This document shows positions 4,946 to 52,730 of a stretch of DNA of 55,645 bases, piece after piece (position 1 is the first letter of the stretch; each line of letters begins with the position of its first letter). The translations under genes were made by a program, and so were the position numbers. The notes under the pieces are model-generated. The model did not search any database, was not told where the DNA came from, and worked only from the letters and a program-made list of their open reading frames with translations. The DNA lies in contig JAFQVY010000008.1 of assembly GCA_017407755.1 (NCBI GenBank), forward strand, positions 1 through 55,645. Direction: 5' to 3'. Source of the DNA: Clostridia bacterium (GTDB lineage Bacteria; Bacillota; Clostridia; Oscillospirales; Acutalibacteraceae).

Positions 4946-6688
4946 TTAATACTTGCTACGCTCAACGTAGGTTGTGTGTAAGAGCTCGTGTGCCTTGTGG
5001 CCGCCGGGCTCGCCGAGGTACTCCTCGTAAACCTTCTTGATGAGGGGGCTCTCGTGAGACTTTCTCTTGGGAAGGTTCTTGTCCTCATTGTAGAGAACCT
5101 TTGCACGCTCTGCTTTGATGTCAACATAGTTTCTTACAGAAGCGGGCTGAATGGGCTGACCGCCGCCGTTTACACAACCGCCGGGACAGCACATAATCTC
5201 AACAAACTGATAATCAGCCTTGCCGGCACGAATGTCGTCAAGAATCTTAGAAGCATTCTCAAGACCTGAAGCTACAGCAACCTTAACAGGCATACCAGCT
5301 ACCTCGTAAGCTGCATACTTAATGCCGTCTGTACCACGAACATCTGTGTAGTCGATTTCCTTAAGGTCTTCGCCTGTAAGAACGTCAGCAACAGTTCTTA
5401 AAGCAGCTTCCATAACGCCGCCTGTTGCACCGAAGATAACAGCAGCACCGGTGAAGTCACCCATTGCGGGGTCATACTGCTCGTCGGGAAGGTTTGTAAA
5501 CTGAAGGCCTGCCTTCTTAATCATATCAGCAAGCTCTCTTGTTGTGATAACGATATCAACGTCCTGCATACCGTCACGGCCCTCGTTGTCACGCTTATGC
5601 TCGAACTTCTTAGCAGTACAGGGCATTACGGAAACGCTTACAATTTTCTTGGGGTCGATTCCTTCCTTCTCAGCATAGTAGGACTTAATCATAGCACCTG
5701 TCATCTGCTGAGGAGACTTACAAGTAGAAAGGTTGGGGAGAAGGTCAGGATAGTAGTGCTCGCAGAACTTAACCCAGCCGGGTGAGCAGGAGGTAATCAT
5801 GGGCAGAACGCCGCCGTTCTTAACTCTCTGGATAAACTCTGTGCCTTCCTCCATAATTGTAAGGTCTGCACCGAAGTTTGTGTCAAATACCTTGTCAAAG
5901 CCAAGGCGTCTGAGGGCTGCAACCATCTTGCCCTCTACGTTTGTGCCGATAGGCATACCGAAGTCTTCGCCAAGAGCTGCTCTTACAGCAGGAGCTGTCT
6001 GAACAATAACAATCTTTTCGGGGTCAGCAAGTGCCTCGAATACCTTTGCGGTCTCGTCTTTAACAATAAGAGCACCTGTGGGGCAAACTACAGTACACTG
6101 ACCGCAGGATACACATGCTACATCAGCAAGGTTTTGGTCAAATGCACAACCGATTTCTGTATCAAAGCCGCGGTTATTTGCACCGATAACGCCAACGTGT
6201 TGCTCCTTACAAGCGGCTACACAACGGCGGCAAAGGATACACTTGTTGTTGTTTCTAACAAGGTGGGGAGTAGATAAGTCAATAGGAAGAACAGGGTTCT
6301 CGCCTGCAAAACGGTCTTCGTTGTCAACGCCGAACTCCTTGCACATTGCCTGAAGCTCACAGTTGTTGCTTCTTTCGCAGGAAAGACACTTTTTGTCGTG
6401 GTTAGAAAGGATAAGCTCAAGTGTAGTCTTTCTTGCCTCCATAACCTTGGGAGAGTTAGTGATAATCTCTGTACCCTCACGGTCAATGGGATAAACACAA
6501 GCTGCAACGAGTGAACGAGCACCTACAACCTCACAAACACACATACGGCAAGCGCCAATCTCGTTCATATCGCGAAGATAGCAAAGTGTAGGAATCTTAA
6601 TTCCGAACTGATGGCAAGCATCAAGAATTGTTGTATTCTTCTCAACAGAGAAAGGCATACCGTTAATTTTAATGTTAATCATTTCCAT
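4946..6688 (-). CDS. hndD: [FeFe]-hydrogenase catalytic subunit (HndD/HydA type)
   Basis: The 580-residue catalytic subunit reduces protons or oxidises H2 at the H-cluster. In order: a [2Fe-2S] ferredoxin-like domain (Cys36, 47, 50, 64), a His-Cys3 [4Fe-4S] domain (His97, Cys101, 104, 110), two CxxCxxCxxxC [4Fe-4S] sites (Cys150-160 and Cys192-202), then the H-cluster domain and a small-subunit-like tail. The H-cluster motifs are TSCSPGW (299-305), MPCTAKKFE (355-363) and, near the end, MCCPGGCVNGGGQP. TSCSPGW differs from the textbook TSCCPGW. With hndC, hndB and hndA in the operon it should form an NAD(P)-linked, possibly electron-bifurcating, cytoplasmic complex. Confidence 0.95.
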   Translation of the reverse strand: MEMINIKINGMPFSVEKNTTILDACHQFGIKIPTLCYLRDMNEIGACRMCVCEVVGARSLVAACVYPIDREGTEIITNSPKVMEARKTTLELILSNHDKKCLSCERSNNCELQAMCKEFGVDNEDRFAGENPVLPIDLSTPHLVRNNNKCILCRRCVAACKEQHVGVIGANNRGFDTEIGCAFDQNLADVACVSCGQCTVVCPTGALIVKDETAKVFEALADPEKIVIVQTAPAVRAALGEDFGMPIGTNVEGKMVAALRRLGFDKVFDTNFGADLTIMEEGTEFIQRVKNGGVLPMITSCSPGWVKFCEHYYPDLLPNLSTCKSPQQMTGAMIKSYYAEKEGIDPKKIVSVSVMPCTAKKFEHKRDNEGRDGMQDVDIVITTRELADMIKKAGLQFTNLPDEQYDPAMGDFTGAAVIFGATGGVMEAALRTVADVLTGEDLKEIDYTDVRGTDGIKYAAYEVAGMPVKVAVASGLENASKILDDIRAGKADYQFVEIMCCPGGCVNGGGQPIQPASVRNYVDIKAERAKVLYNEDKNLPKRKSHESPLIKKVYEEYLGEPGGHKAHELLHTTYVERSKY

Positions 6689-6709
6689 AGTTAAACTGAC
6701 TCCTTTCTC

Positions 6710-8533
6710 TTAGTCTTTATAAATTGCACCGGGCTTACAGTTAGCAAGACAAGCACCGCACTTAACACACTTGTTAAGGTCAATTGTGTAAGAGGGAAGC
6801 TTGTGACCGGGAGCAATGTAATCAGTCTTAACAATAGCATCAGCAGGACAGTTCTTTGCACATCTGCCGCAACCGATACATTTATCTTTATCAATAATAA
6901 AGGAAAGAAGATCCTGACATACGCCAGCGGGACACTTCTTGTCAACACAGTGAGCTACATACTCATCACGGAAGAACTTAAGTGTAGAGATAACAGGGTT
7001 GGGAGCTGTCTGACCAAGACCGCAGAGAGAGTTCTCTTTGATGTAGTAGCAAAGCTTTTCCATCTCGTCAACAAGCTCAAGTGTGCCATTGCCGGATGTA
7101 ATCTGGTTAAGCATCTCAAGAAGTCTCTTTGTACCGATTCTACAGGGGGTACATTTACCGCAAGATTCATCAACGGTGAACTCAAGGAAGAACTTAGCCA
7201 TATCAACCATACAGGTGTCTTCGTCCATAACGATAAGACCGCCGGAGCCCATCATACAACCGATAGCTGTAAGGTTGTCGTAGTCAACTTCTGTATCAAT
7301 AAGGCTTGCAGGAATACAACCGCCGGAAGGACCGCCGGACTGTGCAGCCTTGAACTTCTTACCACCGGGGATACCGCCGCCGATATCATAAATGATTTCG
7401 CGTAAAGTTGTACCCATGGGGATTTCAACAAGACCTGTGTTGTGAATCTTACCGCCAAGAGCGAATACCTTAGTACCCTTAGAGCGTTCTGTACCCATAG
7501 ATGCAAACCAGTCGGCACCCTTAAGGATAATCTGGGGAACGTTTGCAAATGTTTCAACGTTGTTTTCAACTGTGGGTTTGCCGTAAAGACCCTTAACTGC
7601 AGGATAAGGAGGACGGGGACGGGGCTCACCGCGGTTACCCTCGATAGATGTCATAAGAGCTGTTTCCTCACCGCATACGAAAGCACCTGCACCGAGACGG
7701 TTGTCAAGGTCAAAGTCAAAGCCTGAGCCGAAAATGTCTTTACCTAAAAGACCCATTTCCTTAGCCTGGTCAATAGCAATTCTTAAACGGTTAACAGCGA
7801 TGGGGTACTCAGCACGAACGTAAACATAACCCTGAGTAGCACCGATTGCATAACCTGCAATTGCCATAGCCTCAATAAGAGCATGGGGGTCACCCTCTAA
7901 GATTGAACGGTCCATAAATGCACCGGGGTCACCTTCGTCAGCGTTACATACAACGTACTTCTGGTCAGCCTGATTAGGAGCAGTTAAAGCCCACTTTCTA
8001 CCTGTGGGGAAGCCGCCGCCGCCACGACCGCGAAGACCTGAAGCTGTAATAACATCAATAACCTCCTGAGGAGTCATCTCTGTAAGTACCTTACCTAAAG
8101 CGGCATAACCGTCCATAGCTATGTACTCGTTGATGTCCTCGGGGTCAATAACACCGCAGTTACGAAGAACTACACGGTTCTGAGTTTTGTAGAAAGCAGT
8201 GTCGTTAAGTGAAAGATTAGCAACGTCGATATCAGTTGCTTCTTCGCCTGTGTCGCTGTAAACAAGACGCTCAACAACACGACCCTTTAAAAGATGCTCA
8301 GAAACGATTTCGTCAACATCCTCAGGCTGAACCATACTATAGAATGTGCCGTCGGGATGAACGATAACAACAGGGCCTAAGGCACAAAGACCAAAGCAAC
8401 CTGTCTGTACAAGCTTTACTTCTTCAGAAAGACCATACTTTTCAATGGATGCAATGAACTGCTCCTGAATTTTCTGGCTGCCTGAAGAGGTACAACCTGT
8501 ACCGCCGCAAATAAGAACATGTGCACGAATCAT
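6710..8533 (-). CDS. hndC: NADH/NADP-binding flavoprotein subunit of hydrogenase (NuoF/HndC type)
   Basis: The 607-residue diaphorase subunit moves electrons between pyridine nucleotide, FMN and iron-sulfur clusters. It has a thioredoxin-like [2Fe-2S] domain at the N-terminus (Cys9, 14, 46, 50), the NuoF core with GRGGGGFPTGRKW (FMN/nucleotide site), an SLBB region, CGKCTPCRIGTKR for a [4Fe-4S] cluster, and two ferredoxin-type [4Fe-4S] motifs at the C-terminus. The start at 8533 is preferred over one 11 codons upstream because it follows GAGGAG on the minus strand and leaves the conserved MIRAHVLICGG start. It sits between hndB and hndD. Confidence 0.95.
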   Translation of the reverse strand: MIRAHVLICGGTGCTSSGSQKIQEQFIASIEKYGLSEEVKLVQTGCFGLCALGPVVIVHPDGTFYSMVQPEDVDEIVSEHLLKGRVVERLVYSDTGEEATDIDVANLSLNDTAFYKTQNRVVLRNCGVIDPEDINEYIAMDGYAALGKVLTEMTPQEVIDVITASGLRGRGGGGFPTGRKWALTAPNQADQKYVVCNADEGDPGAFMDRSILEGDPHALIEAMAIAGYAIGATQGYVYVRAEYPIAVNRLRIAIDQAKEMGLLGKDIFGSGFDFDLDNRLGAGAFVCGEETALMTSIEGNRGEPRPRPPYPAVKGLYGKPTVENNVETFANVPQIILKGADWFASMGTERSKGTKVFALGGKIHNTGLVEIPMGTTLREIIYDIGGGIPGGKKFKAAQSGGPSGGCIPASLIDTEVDYDNLTAIGCMMGSGGLIVMDEDTCMVDMAKFFLEFTVDESCGKCTPCRIGTKRLLEMLNQITSGNGTLELVDEMEKLCYYIKENSLCGLGQTAPNPVISTLKFFRDEYVAHCVDKKCPAGVCQDLLSFIIDKDKCIGCGRCAKNCPADAIVKTDYIAPGHKLPSYTIDLNKCVKCGACLANCKPGAIYKD

Positions 8534-8546
8534 AAATCTAATCTCC

Positions 8547-8918
8547 TCACTTAGCAATATTAGCAAAAGTAAACTCTGTTACAACTTTGCCGCCCTTAAG
8601 ATGCTCCTGGACAACCCTCTTTGCTTTTTCGGGAGTCATCTTAACATAAGTAACCTTTTCTTTGCCTGCTTCCATAACCTCTACAACAGGCTCATACTGG
8701 CAGATACCGATGCAGCCTGTCTGAGAAACTGTAACCTTTCCGGCTAAGCCCTCGTTTGCTACTTCTTCTACAAATGCACTGAGTACAGGACGTGCACCTG
8801 CTGCGATACCGCAGGTAGCCATACCTACTACTACTCTCATTTCACCGCTGCCGTCTCTGAGGGCAACTTTTTGCTGCATTTTCTCCTTGATTGCCTGGAG
8901 TTCTGCTAATGATTTCAT
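8547..8918 (-). CDS. hndB: [2Fe-2S] thioredoxin-like ferredoxin subunit (HndB type)
   Basis: A 123-residue protein with one thioredoxin-like [2Fe-2S] domain. Cysteines lie in VGMATCGIAAGA and SQTGCIGICQYEP, the spacing seen in HndB and in the N-terminus of HndC. The N-terminal helix (LAELQAIKEKMQQKVALRDG) is typical of HndB. It probably relays electrons inside the hydrogenase complex. The gene lies 13 bp before the hndC start. Confidence 0.9.
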   Translation of the reverse strand: MKSLAELQAIKEKMQQKVALRDGSGEMRVVVGMATCGIAAGARPVLSAFVEEVANEGLAGKVTVSQTGCIGICQYEPVVEVMEAGKEKVTYVKMTPEKAKRVVQEHLKGGKVVTEFTFANIAK

Positions 8919-8943
8919 ATCATTGTTTCCTTTCTATTGTTTA

Positions 8944-9495
8944 TTATTTTAACGCCTCATATTGCTCCTTGAGGTATTCCTCTATCCAGAGGATAACCTC
9001 AAATGTATCTAAAGGGACATCTCCTAAAGTTTTCCTCAGTTCTCTTGTGTCAACACCTACTTGTCCTGAAGTCAGTGTGTGTTTAAAAAGAAAATCTGTG
9101 TCGGGACTGCCCTGAATCAGGGTAGTGATTGAAGAAGGAATGTCACCCAAAGGAGTAAAATCAATGTGGTTTTTATTGAATACTGCTGTGACCACTGTGC
9201 CGTGATTATCGGGATATTCGCTTTCGTGCTTTGACTTGATTTCAAAGCTGCCGCCGGTCATTTCAGCCGCAAGCTTTAAAAGAGGAATTCCCATTCCCAC
9301 AGACCTTGTGGTGCGGGTAGTTGTGAAAGGGTCAGTAACTGAGGCTACCATTTCTTTTTTCATACCGCAACCATTGTCTCTTATGGTAAGGGTCAGAACA
9401 CTGTCTGTTTCATCAAGCAAAATTTCTGTAAGAGTTGCACCTGCTTTTACAGAGTTTTTCGAAATATCCAGAATGTTAAGTGAAAGCTCTTTCAT
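8944..9495 (-). CDS. GHKL-type ATP-binding protein with extra C-terminal domain
   Basis: The 183 residues start like a histidine-kinase ATPase domain: LNILDISKNSVKAGAT (N box), LTIRDNGCGM (G1 box), then VGMGIPLLKLAAEMTGG (G2 box) and NHGTVVTAVF. There is no dimerisation/His domain, sensor or membrane segment, so it is an ATPase or protein kinase module rather than a full sensor kinase. About 75 further residues (from NKNHIDFTPLGD) form a domain I do not recognise. It lies 2 bp after the PHP gene and before hndB, in the regulatory part of the operon. Confidence 0.85.
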   Translation of the reverse strand: MKELSLNILDISKNSVKAGATLTEILLDETDSVLTLTIRDNGCGMKKEMVASVTDPFTTTRTTRSVGMGIPLLKLAAEMTGGSFEIKSKHESEYPDNHGTVVTAVFNKNHIDFTPLGDIPSSITTLIQGSPDTDFLFKHTLTSGQVGVDTRELRKTLGDVPLDTFEVILWIEEYLKEQYEALK

Positions 9496-9497
9496 AT

Positions 9498-10223
9498 CTA
9501 CCTCAGTAGCTCAAAAATTTTCCGCCTTACCAAATCAGAGCTGTAAGGCTCATCATCAATAAGAAAGTACCTGTTTTCATCTCTCATATTCCAAAGATAA
9601 TGTGCATCGGAAGAAACAACACACTTTCTGTTACCTAAATCGTAAGTCTTGCGAAGTTCTTCTTCCTTTTCGCCGTCATTAAGCTCAAACACCTTGAAGC
9701 CTTTGATATCGGGAAAAGTACCCAAGGTTGCGATAATGCCGTTTGCCTGCCTGTCTATGTGAGCAGGATAACAGATTGCACCGTATTTTTCAGCAAGCTT
9801 GGGGCAATCGTCAACAGAAATTGTAGTAGCATTTGATAACAGATGCTTTTCTATGCCTATAATCTCATCGTTGCCGTTCATTATCATTTGTTCACCGTAA
9901 ACGTCAACACGGTTATCTATGAGGATTCGTTTGTCTTGCAAATCCTCGTCAAATTTAAGGGCAGTTTTAAGGTCCTCAAAAAGAAAGATAACGTGAATGT
10001 CCTCAGCTGTTGTAAGCTCCATTCCCGCAATGGGAATGATGCCGTGGCGTTTAGCCGCCTCAAAAAAGCCGGGACAGTTACGGGTTGTATTGTGGTCAGT
10101 AAGAGCTACCACGTTAAGCCCGTTAAGCGTTGCCATACCTGCAATGCTGTTGGGTGTGGACTCATCGTCGCCACAGGGTGAGAGACAGGAGTGAACATGT
10201 AAATCGTAGTAATACTTGTTCAT
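9498..10223 (-). CDS. PHP-domain metal-dependent phosphoesterase
   Basis: The 241 residues match the PHP fold. The N-terminal DLHVHSCLSPCGDDE carries the HxH metal motif; VALTDHNTTRNCPGF, IPIAGMELTTAEDIH and the late VVSSDAHYLWNM supply further His, Asp and Glu ligands of a three-metal site. Stand-alone PHP proteins hydrolyse phosphate esters of nucleotides or small molecules; the substrate here is unknown. Its stop is 2 bp from the following ATPase gene and its start overlaps the preceding DRTGG gene by 4 bp, so it is part of the hydrogenase operon. Confidence 0.9.
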   Translation of the reverse strand: MNKYYYDLHVHSCLSPCGDDESTPNSIAGMATLNGLNVVALTDHNTTRNCPGFFEAAKRHGIIPIAGMELTTAEDIHVIFLFEDLKTALKFDEDLQDKRILIDNRVDVYGEQMIMNGNDEIIGIEKHLLSNATTISVDDCPKLAEKYGAICYPAHIDRQANGIIATLGTFPDIKGFKVFELNDGEKEEELRKTYDLGNRKCVVSSDAHYLWNMRDENRYFLIDDEPYSSDLVRRKIFELLR

Positions 10224-46383: not shown

Positions 46384-46431
46384 GTATTTGTAGGATTTTC
46401 ACTTATTGTGATAAACGAAAGGATGATTAAG

Positions 46432-49400
46432 ATGAACAAATGCAAAAGACTGCTGTGTTTACTGCTTACTTTCGCAATGGTAATTTCTCTTTGTGCAGTA
46501 GGTTTCACAGCAAGTGCTGCAGGGGTAGAGGTTGCAGGCGTTTCTGCTGCTCCTACAGCTGCTGACGACTTTACTTGGGACAATGCAACTGTTTATTTCT
46601 TGCTTACTGACCGTTTTAATAACGGCAACACAAGCAACGATAACAGCTACAATCGCGGTCTCAACCAGAACGGCTCTAAAGCAAGCTACAATAATGTAGC
46701 AGCTTTCCAGGGCGGCGACTTTAAGGGTATTACCCAGAAAATCAACGAAGGCTACTTCGACGATTTAGGTATCAATGCCATTTGGGTTGCAGGTTGGTTT
46801 GAACAGACTCACGGCTACGTAGTAGGCGGTGACGGTAAAAGCTCCTTCCCTCACTACTCATACCACGGTTACTATGGTCTCGACTTTACAGAGCTTGACA
46901 AGAACTATGGTACAGAGGCAGAGTTCAAAGAGATGATTGATACAGCTCATGAGCACGGTATCCGTATCGTTCTTGACGTTGTTCTCAACCACCCCGGTTA
47001 CAACTCTATCTATGATATGAACGAGTACAACTTCGGTACACTTACAGGCAACTGGCAGAGTGTTTACTACAACTGGAACAGCATCAACCAGACTAACTAC
47101 CACGGTTGTATCAAATACAACGACGGTCAGGCTTCTGACTGGGCAAACTGGTGGGGCAGAGATTGGGTACGTGCAGGTATGGCAGGCTACGATAACAACG
47201 GTGGTGGCGACCTTACAGGTGCAGTTACATACCTCCCCGACTTCAAGACAGAAAATACAGCAACAGTAAGCCTTCCCAAGATTCTTCAGAACAAGTGGAC
47301 TAAGGAAGGTACATACAACGCAAAGGTTCAGGAGATTGACCAGACCTTCTCCAAGTATAACCTCGGCAACAAGACAGTTCTAAACTACCTTGTTTCTTGG
47401 TATGCTAAGTGGGTTGAAGAGTATGGTATCGACGGCTTCCGTTGTGACACAGCAAAGCACGTTGACACTTCTTGCTGGAAGAAGCTCAATGATGCTTGTA
47501 CAAAGGCTCTTCAGAATTGGAGAACTGCTAATCCTAACGCAGTAGGTGCAGACTGGGACGAGGATTTCTGGATGACAGGCGAAAACTTCGGTCAGGGTGT
47601 TGCTAACAACCACTACTACCAGAACGGCTTCGATTCTATGATTAACTTCTCCTTCTCAGGTGACAGCCAGGGTAACGGCTGTAACGGTATGAAGAAGGTA
47701 GGTAACCTTAACCAGACATATGCTGATTACGCAAATCAGATTAACAACAACGCAAACTTCAACGTTCTTACTTACATTTCTTCTCACGATACAGGTCTCT
47801 GCCGTGATGACCTTTACTATCAGGGCTCTGCACTCCTCCTCTTACCCGGCGGCGTTCAGATTTTCTACGGCGACGAGACTAACAGACAGTATGTTGAGTG
47901 TACTATCCACGACCATGAATCCAGAGGTTTCATGAACTGGAATAACACAGATAAGAACATTCTTGCTCACTGGCAGAAGGTTGGTTCTTTCAGAAACGAC
48001 CACGTTGCTGTTGGTGCAGGCTCTCATAAGAACCTCTCTGCTACAAGCGGTACAGCTTTCAGCCGTGAATATAACAAAAACAATGTTAAAGATACAGTTG
48101 TTTGTGTAATCGGTGCAAACAAGAATGCAAGCACAACAATTACACTTAACGGTGCATTTGCTGACGGTACAAAGGTAGTTAACGCTTACACAGGCGACAC
48201 TGCTACAGTAACAGGTGGCAAGGTTACATTCAATAGTGGTGCTCAGGGCACAATTCTCGTAGAGGTTGATGAAGCAACAGTTGTAGTACCTACAACAACT
48301 CCTATTCAGACAACTGCTCCTACAGAGCCCCAGAAGCCCACAACAGTAACAACTGCTCCTACAACTCCTTCTGAGCCCGTAAATCCCACAACTACAATTT
48401 CCACAGAACCCTCTGAGGAAATTCCCACAACAACAGCTCCCGACAAAATTACAACTGCTCCTACAGAGACTACTACAGCTCCTGTTGGTCCCGCAGAGTA
48501 CGTAGTTCTCGGTGATGCTGACTTCTCCGGCAAAGTAAACATCAAGGATGCTACTTTAATTCAGAAGCACATTGCAAAGATTGAAATTCTTGATGACAAG
48601 GCAATTTTCGCAAGTGACGTTGATGCAAGCGAAGTTCTCAATATTCGTGACGTAACATTTATCCAGAAGTGGCTTGCAAAGATGTCCATAGACTTCGCAG
48701 TAGGCACAGAGGTGCTTTATAAGGGTTCTGAGGAGTCTACAACTCCCAACGTTAAGCCTTCAGGCTCACCCATTATCATTCCCGGCAATCCCACAACTCC
48801 TACAGAGACAACAGTTGTAGAGCCTACAGAGACATCTACAACAGTAGAGCCTGTTGTTACAGAGCCTCAGCCTATCGTTACTGAGCCTCAGCCCATTGTT
48901 ACAGAGCCTCAGTACACAGAACCCCAGTATACAGAACCCGATATTCCCGATAATCCCGTAGGTGACACAATCACAATCTACTTTGAGAATACATACGGCT
49001 GGAACAGTGTTTACTGGCATGCATGGAATGATGCAGGCGGCACAAACACACCTTGGCCCGGTGACCCCATGACCAACGTAAGCGGTAATATCTATTCTGC
49101 TGAGGTAAGCACTGAGTTTACAGGTATTATCTTCAACGACGGTTCAGGTAGCGACTTCAACAAGACAACTGATACTACAATTGCCGGCGACGGTATGATG
49201 TTCTCTAATGGCTCTTGGGTAGCTTACGACCCCAACGGCGGCGGTAATGACAATCCCAATCCTCCTACACCCGGCACAAGCACAATTTACGTTAGGGATA
49301 GCGCAGGCTGGGGCACAGTATATTGTCATTCTTGGAGTGACTCAAGTGGTACAATATGGCCCGGCACACAGATGACAAATCTTGGCAATGGTGTATACAG

Positions 49401-49803
49401 CATTGATATTGATTCAAGTCATACAGGCGTAGTATTCAATAACGGCAGCGGTACGCAGACAGGCGACCTTACACCTAACTTCGGTCAGATTTTCGACAAC
49501 GGCACAAACAGCTGGAGTGCTTACGATGGCGGCAATGGCGGCGGTAACAGCGGCGGCGACGTAGTGGTTTCAGGCGATTACGTTTACTTTACAGATAACG
49601 CCGGTTGGGGCACAGTTTACTGCCATACTTGGAATACAGTAGGCGGCACAACCACATGGCCCGGCGTACAGATGGAAAATACAGGCGGCAACCAGTACCG
49701 TGTAATGGTTGACGGTAGCCACACAATGGTTAAGTTCAACAACGGCAATGGCGTTGAAGGATCGGAAGCTGAGCTTGTTCTCGGTAACACATATTCTAAC
49801 TAA
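46432..49803 (+). CDS. Secreted GH13 alpha-amylase with dockerin and three CBM26-like modules
   Basis: A 1,123-residue exported starch-degrading enzyme. Signal peptide about 1-30. The GH13 barrel (about 45-600) has DVVLNH (182-187), catalytic nucleophile Asp339 in DGFRCDTAKH, acid/base Glu384 in TGENFG and Asp453 in SSHDTG. A Thr/Pro-rich linker follows, then a dockerin (about 690-757) with two calcium-loop repeats, GDADFSGKVNIKDAT and SDVDASEVLNIRDVT. After a TEP-repeat linker come three starch-binding modules (about 846-933, 950-1033, 1049-1123), each with YGWNSVYWH- or AGWGTVYCH-type aromatics. The start at 46432 has AAAGGA 8 bp upstream. Codons favour C-ending forms, as in highly expressed genes. 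The dockerin implies attachment to a cohesin scaffold. Confidence 0.94.
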   Translation: MNKCKRLLCLLLTFAMVISLCAVGFTASAAGVEVAGVSAAPTAADDFTWDNATVYFLLTDRFNNGNTSNDNSYNRGLNQNGSKASYNNVAAFQGGDFKGITQKINEGYFDDLGINAIWVAGWFEQTHGYVVGGDGKSSFPHYSYHGYYGLDFTELDKNYGTEAEFKEMIDTAHEHGIRIVLDVVLNHPGYNSIYDMNEYNFGTLTGNWQSVYYNWNSINQTNYHGCIKYNDGQASDWANWWGRDWVRAGMAGYDNNGGGDLTGAVTYLPDFKTENTATVSLPKILQNKWTKEGTYNAKVQEIDQTFSKYNLGNKTVLNYLVSWYAKWVEEYGIDGFRCDTAKHVDTSCWKKLNDACTKALQNWRTANPNAVGADWDEDFWMTGENFGQGVANNHYYQNGFDSMINFSFSGDSQGNGCNGMKKVGNLNQTYADYANQINNNANFNVLTYISSHDTGLCRDDLYYQGSALLLLPGGVQIFYGDETNRQYVECTIHDHESRGFMNWNNTDKNILAHWQKVGSFRNDHVAVGAGSHKNLSATSGTAFSREYNKNNVKDTVVCVIGANKNASTTITLNGAFADGTKVVNAYTGDTATVTGGKVTFNSGAQGTILVEVDEATVVVPTTTPIQTTAPTEPQKPTTVTTAPTTPSEPVNPTTTISTEPSEEIPTTTAPDKITTAPTETTTAPVGPAEYVVLGDADFSGKVNIKDATLIQKHIAKIEILDDKAIFASDVDASEVLNIRDVTFIQKWLAKMSIDFAVGTEVLYKGSEESTTPNVKPSGSPIIIPGNPTTPTETTVVEPTETSTTVEPVVTEPQPIVTEPQPIVTEPQYTEPQYTEPDIPDNPVGDTITIYFENTYGWNSVYWHAWNDAGGTNTPWPGDPMTNVSGNIYSAEVSTEFTGIIFNDGSGSDFNKTTDTTIAGDGMMFSNGSWVAYDPNGGGNDNPNPPTPGTSTIYVRDSAGWGTVYCHSWSDSSGTIWPGTQMTNLGNGVYSIDIDSSHTGVVFNNGSGTQTGDLTPNFGQIFDNGTNSWSAYDGGNGGGNSGGDVVVSGDYVYFTDNAGWGTVYCHTWNTVGGTTTWPGVQMENTGGNQYRVMVDGSHTMVKFNNGNGVEGSEAELVLGNTYSN
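48850..48945 (+). repeat. Tandem repeats in the amylase linker
   Basis: Imperfect tandem units encode VTEPQPI (twice), VTEPQ and YTEPQ/YTEP (twice) in the linker between the dockerin and the first starch-binding module. Third-base differences between units show they are not recent copies. Such Thr/Glu/Pro linkers are usually flexible and can be glycosylated. Confidence 0.8.
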
Positions 49804-52351: not shown

Positions 52352-52438
52352 GCGGATATGGCGGAATTGGCAGACGCGCATGGTTCAGGTCCATGTGAAA
52401 GCAATTTCATGCAGGTTCAAGTCCTGTTATCCGCACCA
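52352..52438 (+). tRNA. tRNA-Leu (anticodon CAG), CCA encoded
   Basis: GCGGATA pairs with TATCCGC in the acceptor stem, discriminator A, CCA encoded at 52436-52438. The anticodon loop TTCAGGT gives CAG (52386-52388), reading CTG. A long variable arm (GTGAAAGCAATTTCATGC region) marks it as class II, as leucine tRNAs are. The T-arm is CAGG-TTCAAGT-CCTG. All parts look intact, so it should be functional. Confidence 0.95.
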
Positions 52439-52439
52439 A
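52421..52439 (+). repeat. Direct repeat copy 1 (tRNA-Leu 3' end)
   Basis: GTCCTGTTATCCGCACCAA at the T-loop-to-CCA end of tRNA-Leu is repeated exactly at 52633-52651. The repeat starts in the T-loop, the usual crossover point for tRNA-targeting integrases. Confidence 0.9.
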
Positions 52440-52632
52440 AATTGTGGCACTGCTTTTATAGTGGTGCCACATAATAAAATTAAAATTCCTTTTTAGGGAC
52501 TTGAACCTTAAGAAGGTGAGCGACGTCAATAAAACAGTCCGATGGACTGTTTTTAGACGCGAAGTACGAAGGCGGGTACCGAAAGCGTAAGCTTTGGGTC
52601 GCCGAGTACAGATGATTTTGCATAAAATCATC
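52440..52632 (+). mobile_element. Structured non-coding insert between tRNA-Leu and tRNA-Val, possible small integrated element or remnant
   Basis: The 193-bp insert lies between exact 19-bp repeats of the tRNA-Leu 3' end and holds no credible gene. It is packed with inverted repeats: TGTGGCAC/GTGCCACA (52443-52471), AAAACAGTCC/GGACTGTTTT (52531-52554), nested GTAC/GTAC, GGCG/CGCC and AAAGC-GTAA-GCTTT (52564-52609) and GATGATTTT-GCAT-AAAATCATC (52611-52632), the last abutting the repeat. A 12-nt antisense to the tRNA T-arm is at 52497-52508. It could be a non-autonomous element, a decayed integration relic or a structured RNA; no integrase is visible. Confidence 0.55.
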
Positions 52633-52651
52633 GTCCTGTTATCCGCACCAA
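52633..52651 (+). repeat. Direct repeat copy 2 (duplicated tRNA-Leu 3' end)
   Basis: Exact copy of 52421-52439 lying just before tRNA-Val. No matching 5' tRNA half precedes it, so it is a fragment, as expected at the far end of an element integrated in a tRNA gene. Confidence 0.9.
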
Positions 52652-52654
52652 TAC

Positions 52655-52730
52655 GGGAGCATAGCTCAGCTGGGAGAGCATCTGCCTTACAAGCAGAGGG
52701 TCACAGGTTCGAGCCCTGTTGTTCCCACCA
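52655..52730 (+). tRNA. tRNA-Val (anticodon TAC), CCA encoded
   Basis: GGGAGCA pairs with TGTTCCC in the acceptor stem (one G-U), the D-arm AGCTCAGCTGGGAGAGC is standard, the anticodon loop CTTACAA gives TAC (52688-52690), and the T-arm is CAGG-TTCGAGC-CCTG, followed by ACCA. The 76-nt length is typical. It is probably transcribed through the insert from the tRNA-Leu promoter, since no separate promoter is seen; AAACAGTCC...TTTTT in the insert could limit read-through. Confidence 0.96.

Follow-up and report, generated by a model that had tools for sequence, protein, structure and literature searches.

The window, i.e. the whole stretch of 55,645 nucleotides that was analysed, carries an intact tRNA-Leu(CAG) gene that forms a pair with tRNA-Val(TAC), and between the two genes lies a hairpin-rich insert (Table 1). 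A sequence-only reading of this region had described an exact repeat of the tRNA-Leu 3' end, preceded by no tRNA 5' half and separated from the tRNA by folded DNA whose last hairpin touches the second repeat. All of this proved correct in the window: positions 59-76 of the tRNA (hereafter T) recur exactly, as 18 nt or as 19 nt with the next A, at a start-to-start distance of 212 bp and with 194 nt between both copies. The insert is strongly folded as RNA (z = -7.8), and a DNA fold of the insert with both T copies gave z = -6.25 on the plus strand and -5.57 on the minus strand. Overlooked at that stage were an inverted, tRNA-matching segment (the T-arm of tRNA-Leu(CAG) is present in inverted form at 52497-52508), the covariation of the core, and targets at the gene rpsI.

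The adjoining tRNA-Val(TAC) suggests that the second T of the window would be the one that belongs to the native flank, and locus comparison places the Leu tail before tRNA-Val also in genomes G174 and G089. The 194-nt insert holds no integrase gene of its own, and the one open reading frame in it that reaches 60 aa lies on the antisense strand and extends into the tRNA; this 74-aa frame (52407-52631, minus strand, ending ..VRITGLEPA) spans parts of tRNA and insert and is very probably spurious. Rfam 15 at gathering thresholds, applied to the window and 10 related loci, returned the tRNAs and, in another part of the window, an L10 leader, and no match to the insert, while a relaxed Rfam 15 search of the insert reached a best E of 2.7, with matches to rli52 and CyVA-1 far below gathering. 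Elsewhere in the window, positions 46408-49803 encode a 1131-aa protein in which Pfam recognises an alpha-amylase domain, a dockerin and three starch-binding modules of family CBM26.

Table 1. Features of the tRNA-Leu(CAG) locus, in window coordinates (rcT, inverted copy of part of the tRNA)
Feature	Position	Strand	Basis
tRNA-Leu(CAG), intact host gene	52352..52438	+	ARAGORN; Rfam tRNA
T, first copy = tRNA positions 59-76, GTCCTGTTATCCGCACCA	52421..52438	+	exact repeat comparison
Hairpin h behind the tRNA, no T-run	52443..52471	+	fold; locus comparison
rcT = inverted copy of tRNA positions 54-62, across the 58/59 junction; candidate guide	52497..52505	-	inverted repeat; covariation
Small core hairpin CCTTAAGAAGG	52506..52516	+	core alignment, helix 1
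Core motif: stem GCGAC/GACGC, internal loop, hairpin AAAACAGTCC-GAT-GGACTGTTTT	52520..52560	+	core alignment, covariation
Core hairpin GGCGGGTACC...TTTGGGTCGCC	52571..52603	+	fold; loci compared
Terminal hairpin abutting the second T copy	52611..52632	+	sequence; stem count across elements
T, second copy = exact repeat of tRNA positions 59-76	52633..52650	+	repeat comparison
tRNA-Val(TAC), next gene of the tRNA pair	52655..52730	+	ARAGORN

Anatomy and distribution of the family

The insert is one copy of a widespread and apparently undescribed gene-less family of about 200 bases in Clostridia-type bacteria. Its units of about 150-240 bp share a common layout: the host tRNA reads TTCRA up to position 58 and is followed by T (59-76), hairpin h, rcT, the core, a terminal hairpin and T again. 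The core consists of a GTTAAG-like internal loop with a AAAACAGTCC-type hairpin plus further hairpins, and rcT is an inverted segment of roughly 10-12 nt that begins at position 54 of the host tRNA and spans the 58/59 junction. No description of such elements came up in searches of the open-licence PMC literature, and the passages on tRNA and repeats in PMC2864571 and PMC8040213 contain nothing like them.

Searching the genome and its relatives for the insert, as the sequence-only reading had suggested, yielded a second copy in the window genome behind tRNA-Leu(GAG), 77% alike over the matched part and with its own 18-nt tail repeated, and BLAST matches in 32 of 59 relatives. A core covariance model, which was built from 27 aligned cores and describes rcT and core, not the T copies, finds six places in the window genome; reading the loci there added an element behind tmRNA, which appears at two contig ends, and an element remnant behind tRNA-Met. 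At E 0.01 the model has matches in 137 of the 150 genus genomes (69 of the 75 good ones) and at E 1e-6 in 71 of 394 genomes of the order, in 39 of 167 genera; the figures over 150 genus genomes (core model, Y1, IS110, tyrosine recombinase) are compared on the assumption, suggested by the genome handles, that they refer to one and the same genome set. Cores lie behind 25 tRNA kinds including tmRNA.

Outside the genus, 28 loci were listed and two were dropped since their genomes had fed the model. Among the 26 left, 20 have a tRNA upstream with tail or rcT, the tail is repeated behind a directly preceding tRNA in 19 of the matches listed (exactly 18 nt in 11), and the exact inverted 54-62 segment is present in 19. 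The tail repeat at tRNA ends is therefore not a matter of chance. Nearness to a tRNA and tail copies lie outside model R1; the model includes rcT columns, so that the presence of rcT in its matches is partly selected while its match to the resident tRNA is not. The six other loci include a tRNA-Pro cut by the contig end, a tRNA-Trp 3' half, one locus without T and L373, and two of these six have a T-like tail at the far end with no tRNA upstream.

Loci were collected by core similarity, so the following counts over 130 and 62 tRNA ends describe a biased sample: an exact tail copy (at least 12 nt within 500 bp) was found at 80 of the 130 tRNA ends with a core hairpin nearby and was absent in 50, vs 9 of the 62 ends without such a hairpin. 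When these nine exceptions were read, seven turned out to be cores missed by the hairpin rule, one was a tandem tRNA-Val and one a Treponema case. Some tRNA labels in the tail-copy count are upstream neighbours of the real target, and the core tree (see below) keeps the nearest tRNA. Tail-copy lengths peak at 18 nt (36/80) and 14 nt (14/80), and position 59 is the commonest start (36/80). On a check that the sequence-only reading had proposed, other copies do lie at tRNA ends and often share the boundary seen in the window, but not all of them do: in the 14-nt subtype T starts at position 63, and in the 21-22-nt tail copies (11/80) the element end reads (T)CRA before T. In a Treponema locus (L113) a tRNA-Val has a 22-nt tail copy 218 bp downstream, with a diverged GTTAA..hairpin..TAG motif recognised by eye in reverse orientation, and something similar may exist in spirochaetes. 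Besides the family, a segment AAAAAGAAGTAACTTTTGTCTACC..TATCCAAGC lies behind different tRNAs in three genomes (L322, L326, L047) and represents another tRNA-linked repeat.

Units also occur in tandem, with two identical 192-nt inserts at one locus (L042) and four cores about 198 bp apart at another (L118). A one-off duplication, which had been considered for the window, does not agree with a layout that recurs behind many tRNAs, nor does the scar of a deleted island agree with one conserved unit that recurs in many genera and also in tandem. An origin as the remains of a lost prophage or island, or by decay of a tandem tRNA array, could draw on G174, where a prophage-like region ends at this very junction, running straight into GTCCTGTTATCCGCACCA and then tRNA-Val, with its other end beyond the contig. 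However, many genera share one conserved architecture, what is repeated is a tail of fixed extent (59-76 or 63-76), rcT stands in inverted orientation, and the inserts read showed no 5' tRNA parts; such an origin is refuted as a general account and highly improbable.

A pattern scan of the genome collection returned at least 120 stretches, and 59 of the 120 matches listed lie within 700 bp of a tRNA. In six of the matches listed a comparable layout is found at the 3' end of rpsI, the gene for ribosomal protein S9, which was identified by NCBIfam and Pfam scans of five of the six loci. Here the gene tail through the stop codon is followed by a hairpin, an inverted segment, a core in reverse orientation and the gene tail again; the tail copy is exact in L123, has 1-3 mismatches in four loci and runs off the contig in L109. 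Where the gene sequence varies, the inverted segment varies with it (CTGCGG for CCGCAG, CTGAGG for CCTCAG). Among the matches listed, the hairpin motif also occurs away from tRNAs in Treponema, Bifidobacterium, a Sphingomonas and a Rhodobacterales genome, there mostly without a bracketing repeat of 12 nt. The AAAACAGTCC hairpin motif was seen in intergenic places of Treponema, by eye between palindrome arms in L087 and L113, and in Bifidobacterium biavatii, B. goeldii and B. amazonense, and a core hairpin of Sphingomonas panni was read by eye between apparent rpsM and rpsK (L095, about position 1562).

Target matching, covariation and occupied sites

The segment rcT follows the tRNA behind which the element lies. 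Across 142 elements it matched the resident tRNA at position 57 in a fraction of 0.93, at 59 in 0.92 (131/142), at 63 in 0.83, at 64 in 0.58 and at 65 in 0.60, vs 0.55, 0.34, 0.48, 0.29 and 0.33 for foreign tRNAs with the anchor re-optimised, and the match fades by position 70. A first version of this test had chosen the anchor on the element's own tRNA, and the repeat used the re-optimised control and an anchor blind to the tRNA. With the blind anchor (138 elements) the fractions at the same five positions were 0.82, 0.75, 0.71, 0.51 and 0.51 for the own tRNA and 0.50, 0.31, 0.42, 0.26 and 0.30 for the foreign control. The excess falls exactly where tRNAs differ. Position 57 of rcT matches in 73 of 75 elements that lack TCRA at their own right end (61 of 72 with the blind anchor), and rcT therefore matches the target side and not only the T of the element itself. 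It might act as a guide, though passive copying of the target would predict the same match. Mismatches in rcT comprise both G.T (50 cells) and A.C (43 cells) and say nothing on DNA vs RNA folding.

A junction-spanning segment of this length that follows the target sequence is also what a guide RNA would offer, with rcT as the target-binding loop of a bridge-RNA- or seekRNA-like molecule and an IS110-type recombinase acting in trans. However, DEDD_Tnp_IS110 scores over the cut-off in just 25 of the 150 genus genomes, any match to it occurs in 34 of 137 carriers and 2 of 13 non-carriers, the elements contain no IS110 gene, and G.U pairs are few, which together make RNA-directed insertion of this kind quite unlikely. 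The few genomes also led us to reject IS110 as a helper, and weak matches inside very long frames were a false lead; the window genome has two weak matches, of which one is by Pfam a BadF/DUF2229 CoA-enzyme activase and the other resembles it by its sequence start only.

The fold of the elements is conserved by compensatory change. The outer stem around the core hairpin, which played no part in finding the elements tested, has 303 of 395 Watson-Crick cells in 79 elements vs a mean of 166 (maximum 191) in shuffles that ignore relatedness, with only 7 G.U and 2 A.C cells. In the core alignment 93.7% of helix cells pair, and both sides have changed in 57 cells vs 15.7 in shuffles; the helices hold 468 Watson-Crick, 6 G.T, 4 A.C and 28 other cells. 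By comparison, G.U makes up 7.5% of the paired cells in tRNA helices of the same loci (168 tRNAs). Among 45 elements with 17-18-nt tails, 36 have a stem directly against the second T, vs 1 of 45 shuffled. The near-exclusive Watson-Crick swaps favour selection on a folded DNA strand rather than on an RNA.

At the locus of tRNA-Leu(CAG) behind a presumptive ispD (named by resemblance), 11 of 30 fetched loci were read, and both filled and empty sites were found among relatives, a comparison that the sequence-only reading had proposed. The locus is filled with exact tails in four genomes (window, G097, G010, G089), has an element without an exact tail in G112 and G068, and is empty in the readable 155-420 nt of G020, G028, G101 and G142, two of which show less than 210 nt downstream; in L329 the tRNA is absent at the ispD locus. 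The sequence right after T is common to G010 (filled) and G020 (empty). This segment is itself a repeat, found also after tRNA-Arg in G028, and the pair is thus a strong, not a perfect, case of a filled and an empty site. In G089 a similar hairpin h stands behind both T copies, while the window has no second h. The prophage-like region of G174 (L202, contig C19, about 5140-9902) carries a GH25 endolysin and a tail-fibre-like GDSL protein and ends at the 58/59 junction of tRNA-Leu(CAG), and the tRNA-Val next to it bears a small element of its own.

A tree was built from 76 cores, which come from 41 genomes and represent 25 tRNA kinds. It has few columns, is weakly resolved (14 of 74 inner branches well supported in a near-identical 77-row version) and needs 43 changes of tRNA kind vs a shuffled mean of 61 (minimum 54) and 62 changes of genome vs a shuffled mean of 65.8 (minimum 63). 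With kind changes below the shuffled range, jumps are therefore not frequent. Elements seem mostly to keep their tRNA kind across species and yet to have switched repeatedly, with both T and rcT differing.

This clustering of cores by tRNA kind across species, together with the strong fold and a hairpin h that lacks a T-run inside the Leu-Val pair, would also fit an old structured 3' appendage of tRNA operons, involved in RNA processing or termination, which is now immobile and vertically inherited and whose second T is kept like the tRNA by gene conversion. Presence and absence at one locus among relatives, identical tandem inserts, similar cores at different tRNAs, the occurrence at rpsI as well, and a rarity of G.U pairs that is unusual for an RNA argue against it, and we consider immobility unlikely. 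Even if immobile now, the elements would account for odd repeats and contig breaks as well as for the copies of tRNA tails found behind tRNA genes.

Proposed insertion mechanism and search for a helper

We tentatively favour gene-less, non-autonomous elements that resemble integron cassettes and are inserted via a folded single-stranded site by a recombinase encoded elsewhere. Insertion would take place between tRNA positions 58 and 59 (TTCRA/N), the T of the element itself would rebuild the tRNA, and the old T would stay at the far end. The unit is predicted to fold as a single strand with rcT:T pairing closing the fold, and rcT might align the insertion site. The reaction would be like the insertion of an integron cassette, with the recombinase supplied in trans and host Xer or tRNA-targeting integrases as candidates. 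The target would survive insertion, and repeated events would therefore give tandem arrays. In favour of this account speak the exact tail repeats at many tRNA kinds, the position-specific match of rcT to the resident tRNA, the covarying helices, the filled and empty sites at one locus, the identical tandem inserts, the junction shared with the prophage-like region and the comparable layout at rpsI. The comparisons show the family, its boundary, its target-matched inverted segment and its covarying fold, while movement as a folded single strand by site-specific recombination is inferred from them. Points that count against the cassette-like account are that the elements contain no recombinase and none of the families tested tracks them, that there is no GTTRRRY at the junction, that cores are mostly faithful to tRNA kind, that 50 of 130 tRNA ends are without an exact tail and that the elements may instead have an RNA role.

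The sequence-only reading had proposed a minimal, recombinase-less element copied by a helper; a minimal and recombinase-less element at a tRNA end is what was found, but a helper was not. There is no recombinase in the elements, and none of the families tested tracks them in the genus genomes. Y1_Tnp matches 78 of the 150 genus genomes (74 of 137 carriers, 4 of 13 non-carriers, Fisher p 0.15), is absent from 63 of 137 carriers and from both Bifidobacterium genomes with the motif (2/2), and is present as one gene in the window genome. A simple hairpin rule applied to the Y1 genes of 12 loci found no adjoining core-type hairpin with a GTTAAG-like foot. The Y1 transposase was rejected as a helper on the p value and the carriers that lack it; yet one copy in G010 adjoins a Y1 gene. 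This genome has extra tRNA-Leu element copies away from a complete tRNA (L036 on contig C90, L038 on C18), and the copy next to the Y1 transposase gene is that on C18, where a 3' portion of tRNA-Leu is also present.

These counts bear on another reading, in which the repeat is a true 18-bp target duplication and rcT a fold-back copy, both produced by transposition or a copy mechanism such as single-strand transposition by a Y1 enzyme (IS200/IS605/RAYT) that cuts after TTCRA, or synthesis primed by a hairpin at the tRNA terminator. The fixed TTCRA, the flanking hairpins, right-end variants reading (T)CRA at the junction and the complementary segment resemble the anatomy of IS200/IS605, and a very similar core that is combined with a different T and rcT at each of Tyr, Cys and Asn (L139, L147, L153) looks as if both were target-derived. 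However, Y1 is missing from many carriers and from the Bifidobacterium genomes, and elements are found at gene 3' ends and not at any TTCRA, so that we regard a duplication as improbable, though a carried T and an 18-bp target duplication cannot be told apart from sequence alone.

A tyrosine recombinase match occurs in 144 of the 150 genus genomes, and the six genomes without one are all carriers, among them G145, which is 94% complete. The window genome has one full-length tyrosine recombinase and one fragment; the full-length protein scores best on XerC (224 bits vs a cut-off of 335) and reaches 80.9 vs 265 on integrase_gron. In G091 a tyrosine recombinase lies near a tRNA-Asn array, but it was set aside since recombinases of its type occur elsewhere in the company of other genes. 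The host Xer or tRNA-targeting integrases that are present transiently may be considered helper candidates. Homing by a guided nuclease (TnpB type) was rejected on logical grounds, because filled sites retain an intact target. A larger, gene-bearing version was sought by reading 12 cores without a close upstream tRNA and listing the ORFs of L083, and none was found. Carriage by phages or plasmids was dismissed as well: one exact core pattern had 0 matches in viral contigs, and the window insert by blastn had 0 matches in phages and 0 in plasmids.

A bolder version of the cassette-like account is nucleic-acid-guided insertion of gene-less DNA, with rcT as a rewritable guide of about 10-12 nt and a host recombinase (e.g. 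of Xer type) acting on folded single-stranded DNA, which we hold to be rather doubtful. If true, the same core could be re-aimed at almost any tRNA, at tmRNA or at a conserved gene end, and each insertion would rebuild the host gene. We know of no earlier case of a target-matching guide in gene-less elements.

Comparison with known systems

If the cassette-like account holds, the elements would form an unrecognised class of mobile DNA that is smaller than a gene, common in Clostridial genomes (137/150 of one genus), spares its target gene and carries a target-matched sequence. Xer-type or other host recombinases might then prove to act on a new kind of substrate, and the elements would provide a compact, gene-sparing insertion site, while a helper of integron or phage type would make them less of a departure from known systems.

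Integron cassettes possess a folded attC site with an inverted R''/R' pair, form tandem arrays and leave the primary site usable. Likewise, the elements have the inverted pair rcT/T, one fixed point, tandem arrays and a usable primary site, and their stems vary in sequence and not in pairing. A folded site of inverted boxes with structure-conserved stems is thus found here too, and the strand would presumably fold in this way in the cell. In contrast to integrons, there is no GTTRRRY box and the junction reads TTCRA/NTCC in the loci compared, the elements are gene-less, and the target is the tRNA T-arm and tail or the end of rpsI, with many targets per genome. Moreover, the window genome has no intI with attI, and its full-length recombinase lies far below the integron-integrase cut-off.

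Prophages, ICEs, islands and satellites at tRNA genes likewise rebuild the tRNA 3' end and repeat the tail at the far end, and the prophage-like region of G174 uses the same junction. Our elements differ from them in being only about 200 bp long, without genes or an integrase of their own and with an inverted T-arm, and in occupying 25 tRNA kinds and rpsI while not being found in viral, phage and plasmid collections. IS200/IS605, REP/BIME and RAYT elements are similarly short and hairpin-rich, lie behind a short fixed sequence and use guide-like pairing, whereas here an 18-nt gene tail is repeated, rcT is tRNA-specific and there is no significant association with Y1. With the bridge RNA or seekRNA of IS110/IS1111 the elements share a structured non-coding part and a target-matching segment across the insertion point; they differ by the lack of a recombinase gene, DNA-like pair changes and the lack of a genomic association. 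Casposons and their miniature derivatives insert at tRNA 3' ends with a long direct repeat, from which the 18-nt repeat, the distribution over multiple tRNAs in bacteria and the inverted T-arm set our elements apart. Failing defining features of each, the elements nonetheless resemble integron cassettes in topology and tRNA islands in target.
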